From NCBI GenBank assembly GCA_037951105.1, contig JBAMJV010003325.1:1-64000 (forward strand): a stretch of DNA of 64,000 nucleotides, in the 5' to 3' direction. This document shows, in pieces, positions 9,601-27,185 of the stretch (positions are counted from its first letter, which is position 1; every line of letters begins with the position of its first letter). The notes under the pieces were generated by a model that saw nothing but the letters and a program-made list of their open reading frames with translations, searched no databases and had not been told where the DNA came from. The translations under genes and the position numbers were made by a program. Source of the stretch: Echinarachnius parma. Lineage: Eukaryota; Echinodermata; Echinoidea; Clypeasteroida; Echinarachniidae.

Positions 9601-12600
9601 AAAGTATGTACCGTCAGTAACATCGTCATATTGTAAAACTTATTATTTCGGGCGGCTGATTTTATCAGCTTAATCAATTCAATATAATCAAAGTCGGAAG
9701 ATCAATGCTCACAAGTTGCGCCATTTTTAAAAACCTAATATAGTTTGCGTTCTAAACCAACATAATTATTATAAAACTTATCTTTCGTTCGCAACTATTT
9801 CTAATTCTCTGTGATATATAAGATGGATAGTTTCAAAATGAAAAGGAATACAATTATGTCTGAATCATCGGGAATATCGTCATCATCTTTTTAAAATTCA
9901 AGAAGACATAGCTGGATGATTTGTGATGACAATTTTATGTTTTAATGATGAAGGAGTTGTTATACCAAAAATCAATTCCAGAAGATGCTGAACTTCTGAA
10001 AGCTCTCTTCTTTTTTTGTAACTACTAGTCTAGAATTAAGGCCAAACTTTCCTTTTGTCAATTTCCTGTTTTCAATAGAGGACCATTGCCATCATGAATA
10101 GATAGCTATAAGCCGTCTGCACGCCCCAATTAAGCGCCAAAATTTCCTTTGTGATCAGCATGACTGCATCACTAATCCGTGTGCACAGGTCACTTGAGAA
10201 AGGACAATAGATATGTTCCCCTTAATAGGGGGTGTGCTCCAGTGCAACAGAGGATTAATCCATGTGCACAGGCCACTTGAGATAGGACAATTAGATATGT
10301 GCCCCTTAATTAGGGGGTGAGCTCCAGTGAAGCAGAGGATTAACCAGACAAAGGGAATTTTTTAAGGCATCTGCAAGGGTGTGCACCCCTTATAGACAAT
10401 GCGTGGCTTGAATGCTGACACATGCATTGTCTATGTGCACTGTACGACCAACCCTGTGTCAGGAGGGGCTGTAGCACCTACCTAGACTGGGAGAGCTGGC
10501 CCAGGGGGCTCGCCCCTTCTCGGAGGCACCCGAATATGAAGTGAGTCAAAATCTGCTCTCAACTATCTTCCTTTTTTTTCTCAACCTGAAAAGAATGAAG
10601 AATGTGCTTTCTGTTTTCTATTTGGATCAAATTCCTTGAGCACAAAGTGAGTGAGAGTCTGCTTTGTTTTTGTTTCAAATTGATGGGGAGGTTTAAGTTA
10701 ACCCGTTGAGGACTGGTCCCGAAAATATTCGGGCTTTGGTCTATTGAGAAAACATGTTGTAGCAAAATCAGTCCGTCCTCAACGGATTAAACAGAGCTGC
10801 ATGCAACCTTTCCTTTTTGTGACAGAATTATTCCTTTTTTAAAACATAATTAAATGCATCCATTTTTCCATGTAAAATCCTTTATTGTATGTTTAGTGTA
10901 TATTGTAATGTTGTTTATCAGTCTTGCACCTTAAGCATATTATGGCTAGTATGCTCCCTAGGGAGTTGAGTAAGTATGCATATCACTGTGTGGGATTGAA
11001 CTGTACCTAATGACCATGGGTAATAAAAGTGCTAGGAGTGCCACATCGAGACAGACCTATGGGCGTTTTACTTGACTTAAATTATTTGTTATTAATTTCT
11101 TGCCTCTCCAGTTGGTAATTATTAAATGAATTAATCAATAAAAATTACTATTGTCTTTCCTGTCTAGTTGGTGAATGAGTTCCTGGTTTGCTGCAGTCGT
11201 CCATTAGATTGATTAGAGATGATATTGTATCATAGTTAGTCGCTATATAACTCGACCTGTTATCATTCCCATTGTGTTACCCCTCCAGTTGGTGAATGAG
11301 TTCCTGGTCGACCAGCAGAGGCATGTGGGACCACCACAGACATTCCACATGGGCGCGCTCCTGCAGGAGATGCAGGAGATCGAGGGACATCATCACAGAC
11401 AGGCGCTGGCTCAGGGTGAGTGTTGGATCATCACTTTATTAGCAGAGATGCCAACTAGTACGTTTTTATAGTATTTAGTATGTTTTGTTGAGGAAAATAC
11501 ATACGGCAGTACGTTTTTCTTAGCAAAAAATAAGTTTTTTCTTCCCCCCCCCCCATTCTATAGTAACGGTCTGAAAATGGCAAAAAGAACTACGTTGAAC
11601 CCTGATAAACTATTGCTAAAGTTAGGTATTTTAAATAAATCACAAAGAAACAAAGCAAACTCATAAAACGTTGTGTGATCGACTTAACCAACTTTTATAT
11701 TAACGCAAACATATAGAGTATTTTTGTTGCACTCATTGTCTTCGCGAAAAAAATATGATTTTTTTGTTTTACCTCGAGGTTGGCTGCTCATTAAATGTTA
11801 ATGAAAGAGCATACATTTTACTTGCCCATTCTTACCAGTAAAACAATTTCCTGACATTTTACAGGACCGGGCCAACGCCCCAGTGGAAGTGTCGAGTTTT
11901 TGTCAAAATCTGATTTTTCTCTCCAAAATCTGATTTTTTGTAAAAGGATATTCGGTAGATTCTGTTTTTTTGTGTCAAGAGGTTGGCATCTCTGTATTAG
12001 GCAAATATTGAATTACACCACAACACAAAGGAATAACAATGCCCAAGTCACTACATAGCATGGTTATGGTGCTACAATGACCTTATAACAGTATATTAAC
12101 CTCACAAGTGCCACATTTTTTTGTGTGTTGCTTTATTATTCAGGGAAAAGGGGACTTGCTGAATGTATTAGTGCATATTGTTAGCATTTAGCTGTGTAGC
12201 TATGAAGAATGGGGGATGTGGTTTAAATAGGAACTACAAGTTGAATTTATAACCGTCGGCAGCTAGCGTGGAACTATTTGTTATCTATAATACTTTTATA
12301 CGGGGATAATCATAATGCAAAAGCACTAAATGGGTTACCCTGGGTGACTAAAACTAATGATTACAAAAGCAAGAATTATATCTGTTGTTGTCATTATGAT
12401 TTTTTTATTATTACAATACTTACCACAGACAGCACCTGGTATTGCAGACTTAGCCGCTCAGCCAGACTGGGCCGCTGAGTTCTTTGAAGCAGAGCAGAAG
12501 AGAGCAGAGGAGATAGTGGATGGCAAGGATCATCATCATCATCATCATGATTATTATTTGTTATTTGATTAATGACCACAGCTCCTGGTATTGCAGACTT

Positions 12601-27185: not shown

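Follow-up and report, generated by a model that had tools for sequence, protein, structure and literature searches.

Truncated exon copies in the PEX5 introns of Echinarachnius parma as probable by-products of short tandem duplications

Why should the introns of one gene be littered with incomplete copies of its own exons? The question is raised by the gene PEX5 in a 64,000-nucleotide stretch (hereafter, the window) of the genome of the echinoid Echinarachnius parma (GenBank assembly GCA_037951105.1, 1.2 Gb in 14,790 contigs). The window occupies positions 1 to 64,000 of the 142.8-kb contig JBAMJV010003325.1, here called C3324. In the mitochondrial COX1 of the assembly the echinoderm genetic code gives a sensible reading: ATA stands at Ile of the consensus, three AGA codons stand at Ser, and the only AAA codon within the gene stands at Asn. 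We assembled a PEX5 gene model from splice sites, which gave 15 coding exons between positions 6426 and 27185 of the plus strand; the protein encoded by exons 2-15 matched human PEX5 (1fch) with an E value of 2.4e-142. The second haplotype is represented by another contig, C5213, which shows synteny to C3324 over the latter's initial 52 kb and encodes an uninterrupted PEX5. Our evidence consists of sequence only and comes from one genome, with 48 exons from three gene families (PEX5, kinesin and chaperonin). It indicates that the fragments are very probably dead remnants of short germ-line tandem duplications, a known type of mutation that is present here at unusual density, with an apparent lean towards exons.

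We counted 20 partial copies in the window, derived from 11 of the 15 PEX5 exons and every one of them on the sense strand, in agreement with the approximately 20 partial duplicates of 11 exons listed in a first-pass annotation of this DNA. A BLAST search with the exons against the window (E≤0.01) returned 18 copy matches, all in plus orientation, from exons 1, 2, 3, 6, 7, 9, 10, 12, 14 and 15. A self-comparison added the copy of exon 11 (62 bp, 84% identity), and an alignment added a second fragment of exon 15. Decoys were searched against the gene region: reversed exons gave no matches, and codon-shuffled exons, in 20 sets of 15, gave four in total, a rate of about 0.2 per codon-shuffled set as compared with 18 for the real exons. 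Copies with an identity of at least 80% correspond to 63% of the coding nucleotides in the window and to 52% on C5213. None of the 20 window copies is a whole exon with both splice sites; the nearest to one is the copy of exon 6, which holds 96 of 103 nucleotides and lacks a donor. A second PEX5 gene as the source of the copies was rejected after a protein search of the whole 1.2-Gb assembly, which found no other locus; all 37 of 37 matches (E≤0.001) fell on C3324 or C5213.

The arrangement of the copies is that expected of tandem duplication. A tandem unit with one breakpoint inside an exon leaves either a 3'-truncated copy upstream of the parent or a 5'-truncated copy downstream of it. We examined 49 copies for this layout (20 in the window, two of exon 13 on C5213, 21 in kinesin genes and six in chaperonin genes); three were ambiguous, and 44 of the 46 that could be classified obeyed the rule (binomial p 3e-11). 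Orientation was equally one-sided, with 40 sense and no antisense matches for 48 exons, against 113 and 32 for 300 intergenic segments. Homology between the spacer and the sequence beyond the copy was recognised in six of 17 pairs (p<0.04), was marginal in two (0.06-0.075) and was not seen in nine. The clearest tandem arrays are those of exon 13 on C5213 and of a kinesin gene on contig C1423, where a 170-bp unit made up of the 3' half of an exon, its donor and intron sequence occurs three times; at one C1423 junction the motif ATGG, as judged by eye, is common to both sides.

These features suggest the following origin. A stretch of about 100-220 bp (where measurable) that straddles either border of an exon, with one end in the exon and the other in the adjoining intron, appears to be repeated head to tail, and the single breakpoint inside the exon leaves one complete exon and one truncated copy. 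The intact exon stays functional, while the unconstrained copy collects stops, frameshifts and lost splice sites, and its intron flanks are soon blurred by insertions and deletions (indels) and by mobile-element insertions. Duplications of whole exons, or of segments internal to an exon, presumably also arise and are purged by selection, so that the truncated ones would be left. The initiating lesion may have been two offset nicks, or else a break leaving long overhangs, with subsequent fill-in and joining; replication slippage could also serve. The suggested repair route is borrowed from the literature on end joining, where passages of PMC5730883 explain tandem duplications by the end joining of breaks with protruding ends. 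Such duplication would be genome-wide and recent enough to have produced differences between the two haplotypes.

The copies can be followed along the gene, all of them and all exons being on the plus strand. Exon 1 (6426..6601) contains the start codon and, on the window haplotype, 2 nt more than on C5213, which breaks the reading frame and reflects either a null allele or an error in the base sequence. Its copy (10452..10539) comprises exon nucleotides 88-175, the 3' part, with 7 nt of the donor side, has a stop at 10472 and is also found on C5213. It lies in the intron adjoining its parent but 3.85 kb away, so that the earlier claim of copies lying next to their parents is correct as to the introns and fails in distance for exon 1. 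Upstream of exon 2 (11289..11415) are its first 20 nt (11168..11187), a match of just 20 bp of exon (E 0.002) that nevertheless recurs on C5213. Exon 3 (12582..12722) is preceded by a copy (12391..12531) with intron flank and exon nucleotides 3-99, whose intron part is homologous (p 0.01) and which is also present on C5213. The copy search found none for exons 4 (13469..13544) and 5 (13727..13762). Upstream of exon 6 (14740..14842), the copy at 14275..14428 holds intron flank and exon nucleotides 1-96 of 103 with a 1-nt insertion, and recurs on C5213. Exon 7 (16301..16432) has a copy on either side, both shared with C5213: the upstream one (16078..16157) consists of the acceptor and exon nucleotides 1-73 and contains an in-frame TAG, and the downstream one (16573..16660) consists of the 3' part with approximately 10-16 nt of intron and is 97.7% identical over 87 nt. 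Exon 8 (17799..17813) is a 15-nt microexon deduced from splice sites.

In the second half of the gene the copies are more crowded. Four lie downstream of exon 9 (19620..19790): a 3' part with intron flank (19925..19988), exon nucleotides 97-171 with intron flank (20071..20175), exon nucleotides 124-171 with the donor side (21260..21322) and a weak match of 70% (21354..21416). Downstream of exon 10 (21730..21873) are two copies of its 3' part with the donor side, the first (21993..22101) with an open frame and the second at 22174..22265; C5213 yields only the parent and the first copy. Exon 11 (22618..22688) is followed by a copy (22796..22857) of its last 17 nt with 45 nt of intron, whose intron side recurs on C5213, and the spacer is homologous to the sequence after the copy. 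Exon 12 (23491..23694) has an upstream copy of exon nucleotides 23-128 (23289..23382), also on C5213, and a downstream copy of nucleotides 64-203 (23864..24008) that has lost its donor. For exon 13 (24547..24712) there is no copy in the window, and there are two tandem copies on C5213. Three copies precede exon 14 (25937..26094): two of exon nucleotides 1-43 (25031..25073 and 25357..25399), and one of intron flank and exon nucleotides 1-124 (25120..25300; 97.6%). Between them and the parent exon a dispersed high-copy repeat has been inserted (25465..25876). This repeat of about 410 bp also occurs at 47855-48280 and 53838-54242 of the window, and 39 other places carry it at 89-93% identity among 40 candidates scored out of 6,750 in the assembly. 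Finally, exon 15 (26975..27185, including the stop codon) has two upstream copies, one of about its first 33 nt (26600..26640), which is weak with 33 aligned nucleotides and has an intron part homologous to the next unit (p 0.0075), and one of exon nucleotides 21-94 (26779..26852), also on C5213. The stops reported earlier at 10472 and in the copy at 16085 were both seen, as was the lost donor, near 24002. As for the copies described as open, those at 22012 and 25177 are so; that at 22185 is open within its exon part but has an in-frame TAG just upstream.

How the copies have changed indicates how they have lived. Differences between copies and their own parents were distributed over the three codon positions as 44:34:72 (1,338 aligned sites; exon 1 was omitted because the window exon 1 is out of frame). 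This distribution fits a neutral copy beside a synonymously evolving parent, for which a third-position share of 47% is expected and 48% was seen (p 0.93), and it rejects the ratio of 6:2:50 found between the alleles of exons 2-15 (p 2e-28). First and second positions put the substitutions accumulated by the copies at approximately 0.087 per site, and the additional third-position change of the parents is approximately 0.074 per site. In the well-aligned 5' half, comparison of the haplotypes gives 13 differences over 458 sites for six shared copies and 230 over 10939 for the introns, so that these copies have diverged about as much as introns. From the codon positions and this near-intron divergence no coding constraint on the copies was apparent, the exon 6 copy excepted, which marks the copies as for the most part old, unconstrained DNA shared by the haplotypes.

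Comparison of the two haplotypes showed that the copies of exons 1, 2, 3, 6, 7 (two), 9 (four), 10, 12 and 15 occur on C5213 in the same order as in the window; those of exon 9 were paired by order, and their alignments are weak. On C5213 no counterpart was found for the second copies of exons 10, 12 and 14, and for the first and third copies of exon 14 a vestige of 58 to 65 bp was found, the 58-bp vestige of the truncated end being matched by both. Conversely, for the two exon 13 copies on C5213, which form a tandem unit of about 190 bp, a search of the window returned the parent only. The second copy of exon 14 differs from its parent at 3 of 124 positions and the alleles of exon 14 from each other at 6 of 158; the distance from copy to parent being the smaller of the two, this copy may postdate the split of the haplotypes.

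The pattern is not confined to PEX5. We probed each exon against approximately 600 bp of its surroundings (E≤0.01), with a strict class of matches of at least 80% identity and at least 40 bp. The kinesin sample comprised 26 exons (entries 1-37 of 134, minus 11 judged by eye to be the other haplotype, pairs being assigned in the same way); four of these (L037, L039, L040 and L042) were chosen because a profile search already showed a copy and were probed with flanks of 305-675 bp, and one further exon had a downstream flank of only 61 bp. The chaperonin sample comprised seven exons of 20 planned, with three top single-block matches and one apparent allele skipped. Local copies of any kind were found for 9 of 15 PEX5 exons on each haplotype, 14 of 26 kinesin exons and 3 of 7 chaperonin exons, none of them antisense; in the strict class the counts were 8/15, 9/26 and 1/7. 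Among 63 chaperonin profile matches no obvious local partial pair was seen, though three of the seven exons were positive at the DNA level. A 157-bp kinesin exon copy on L040 (contig C10331) was not found on its apparent allele L041 (contig C4220). Separately, an intronic tandem pair is present on both L040 and L041. Short local direct-repeat clusters, minisatellite arrays included, numbered 46 in 218 kb outside PEX5, about one per 4.7 kb. Of the two explanations offered by the first-pass annotation, frequent short local duplication is thus supported by the recurrence of copies on an independent contig, by the kinesin and chaperonin genes and by these repeat clusters.

The other explanation held that the assembler had stitched divergent haplotypes in tandem, the copies then being exons of the other allele. 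The genome is indeed very heterozygous, introns 9-14 match only partly between the contigs, and at 20 diagnostic sites the base of the C5213 copies is that of C3324, as against eight with their own and four with neither. This signal comes mainly from exon 9, however, where copies from either contig have the base of C3324 (24 versus 4, with 3 neither), as fits an ancestral state of that base, and the C3324 copies match their own haplotype at 28 sites, the other at 12 and neither at four. Both alleles moreover exist as separate contigs with copies at corresponding places, the differences between copy and parent are spread over the codon positions and include stops, and the kinesin genes show the same layout, all of which makes stitching very improbable. 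It is likewise highly unlikely that selection keeps the copies for use as alternative exons, decoys or poison exons. The copies are without exception in sense orientation, many retain one splice site, some are open and the exon 6 copy has changed mostly at third positions; but only that one of the 20 is near full length, and it has no donor. There are stops and a lost donor among the copies, the shared ones diverge about as fast as introns, the codon positions fit neutrality, and several copies were found on one haplotype only. Reverse transcription of RNA fragments, or capture of exons by mobile elements, would account for the strict sense orientation, and yet we regard such an origin as scarcely credible, given that many copies carry intron flank, that all sit in introns beside their own parent, that the 37 protein matches are all at the locus with none dispersed, and that several arrays run head to tail with intron included.

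A more serious rival, doubtful in our judgement but a real possibility, is that germ-line duplication is aimed at exons, whose rate of tandem copying would be several times that of flanking introns or GC-matched DNA. Candidate causes are methylated gene bodies, recombination limited to exons between divergent homologues, and copying confined to exons. A local copy was found for 26 of 48 exons, as compared with 47 of 300 intergenic segments of 130 bp (26 in the strict class), 51 of 300 of 215 bp (23 strict), 48 of 300 segments of PEX5 introns with the exon copies masked (window 28/150, strict 6/150; C5213 20/150, strict 9/150) and 41 of 260 GC-rich segments (24 strict; from a sample of 289). 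The excess over intergenic, masked intronic and GC-rich sequence has p values of 3e-8 to 6e-8, which are optimistic, exons of the same gene and overlapping control segments being non-independent. GC content as the cause was not supported, the GC-rich segments having matched in only 41 of 260 cases. Unmasked PEX5 introns, with the copies included, gave 48/150 and 33/150 for matches of any kind, which speaks against this rival. The PEX5 exons are CpG-poor (observed/expected 0.40, against 0.58 in the PEX5 introns and 0.82 in intergenic sequence, from 28000 onward in C3324), a depletion of the kind expected from gene-body, exonic methylation. The breakpoints, however, lie at distances from CpG no shorter than those of exon positions taken at random (p 0.36, n=18), a test that gave no sign of CpG-linked breakage. 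The data are also limited to 48 exons of one genome.

How much of this excess uniform duplication could produce was examined by simulation, with whole-exon and exon-internal duplications removed, parents constrained, indel rates derived from the haplotypes (in runs with small and with large indels), unit lengths of 80-300 bp and a constant rate. The simulated exon-to-neutral ratio was 1.05, as compared with approximately 4.6 observed (log-transformed match fractions). Among simulated copies the old ones remained visible more often when exonic than when intronic (0.22 against 0.06 for an age of 0.18 substitutions per site; 0.18 against 0.03 with large indels), so that the excess depends on the age estimate, and an underestimated age would shrink it further. 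Real introns also lose similarity faster than simulated ones (84 of 217 allelic intron probes still matched), a turnover that hides intronic duplications. Correction for this, by reasoning rather than by a new simulation, raises the predicted ratio to 1.4-1.9, and an exon excess of about 2.5-4 fold is likely to remain.

The tandem-duplication reading has points to answer, among them that a uniform process fails to explain the exon excess. Two kinesin fragments violate the topology rule. The nine pairs of 17 without recognisable spacer homology lack what a pure tandem unit requires; lost similarity is expected at the age of the copies, because allelic introns at 12-13% third-position divergence match in only the 84 of 217 probes. 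In the downstream copy of exon 7 (marginal, p 0.06) and in kinesin L039, intron sequence can be recognised over no more than about 8-16 bp, and a second route that copies only an exon and a few intron bases is possible. Copies seen on one haplotype only may be losses, as the vestige of the first and third exon 14 copies that persists on C5213 illustrates. Finally, of the 10 differences between the exon part of the exon 6 copy (14332-14428) and its parent, nine are at third positions, which is not the mark of a dead copy; although frameshifted, this copy may have been constrained until recently.

Germ-line tandem duplication, the reading we prefer, has several relatives in the literature, which we consulted in part. 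The short tandem duplications formed through overhang breaks or paired nicks in PMC5730883 are likewise direct, local and sometimes of several units, and are head-to-tail as the clearest arrays here are; the copies described here differ in being dense around the exons of ordinary genes. Work on tandem exon duplication and mutually exclusive exons, as presented in sections of PMC9013439, likewise deals with exon-homologous sequence in introns of the same gene and strand, but centres on exons that are spliced or possibly spliced, whereas the PEX5 copies are truncated and mostly dead. The same portions give the share of exonic nucleotides with a homologue of at least 80% in the gene as approximately 2% in human, 0.08% in fly and 0.06% in worm; our 52-63% was obtained with a different aligner and for one gene as against all genes. 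Exonize (PMC12343006, excerpts) detects partial and intronic exon duplications, in its count of genes commoner than full ones across 20 eukaryotes, and likewise catalogues intronic, degenerate matches; in the text examined we saw no density per exon, no topology rule, no neutral control and no result for echinoderms. In parts of PMC2891723, introns are described as gained when exonic DNA is partially duplicated in tandem. Such events are similar in kind, but the PEX5 copies sit in existing introns, with no new intron position seen. Under the terms searched, the open literature yielded no account of truncated exon copies as a pervasive feature of echinoderm genomes.

About half of the sampled exons (26/48) thus carry decaying fragments of themselves. 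If the same holds genome-wide, errors of gene prediction are to be expected, such as spurious alternative exons and false internal repeats, and new exons and altered introns would have plentiful raw material from which to arise. Each copy records the state of its exon at the time of formation, and those of exon 9 suggest which allele is ancestral. Were an exon-directed process to operate, about half of all exons would trail truncated fossils whose ages form a duplication record for each exon. Should the exon bias survive better controls, the placement of breakpoints would bear on how germ-line breaks arise in the exons of a very heterozygous genome.

The haplotypes themselves show an uneven history. 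Exons 2-8 are near-identical between them, with three differences, all at third positions. Exons 9-15 are deeply diverged (differences at 47 of their 375 third positions) and their introns differ greatly in length; this part spans 19620-27185 of the window and 49510-59480 of C5213. A long-lived or introgressed haplotype would give such a pattern, as would local conversion. Collinearity ends at approximately 52 kb on C3324 and 85.5 kb on C5213, beyond which both contigs continue for tens of kb, and this end is either a structural difference or an error in joining a contig. Some stretches within the diverged half of PEX5, among them the exon 12 and exon 15 copies, show a divergence of only 3-5% between the haplotypes.

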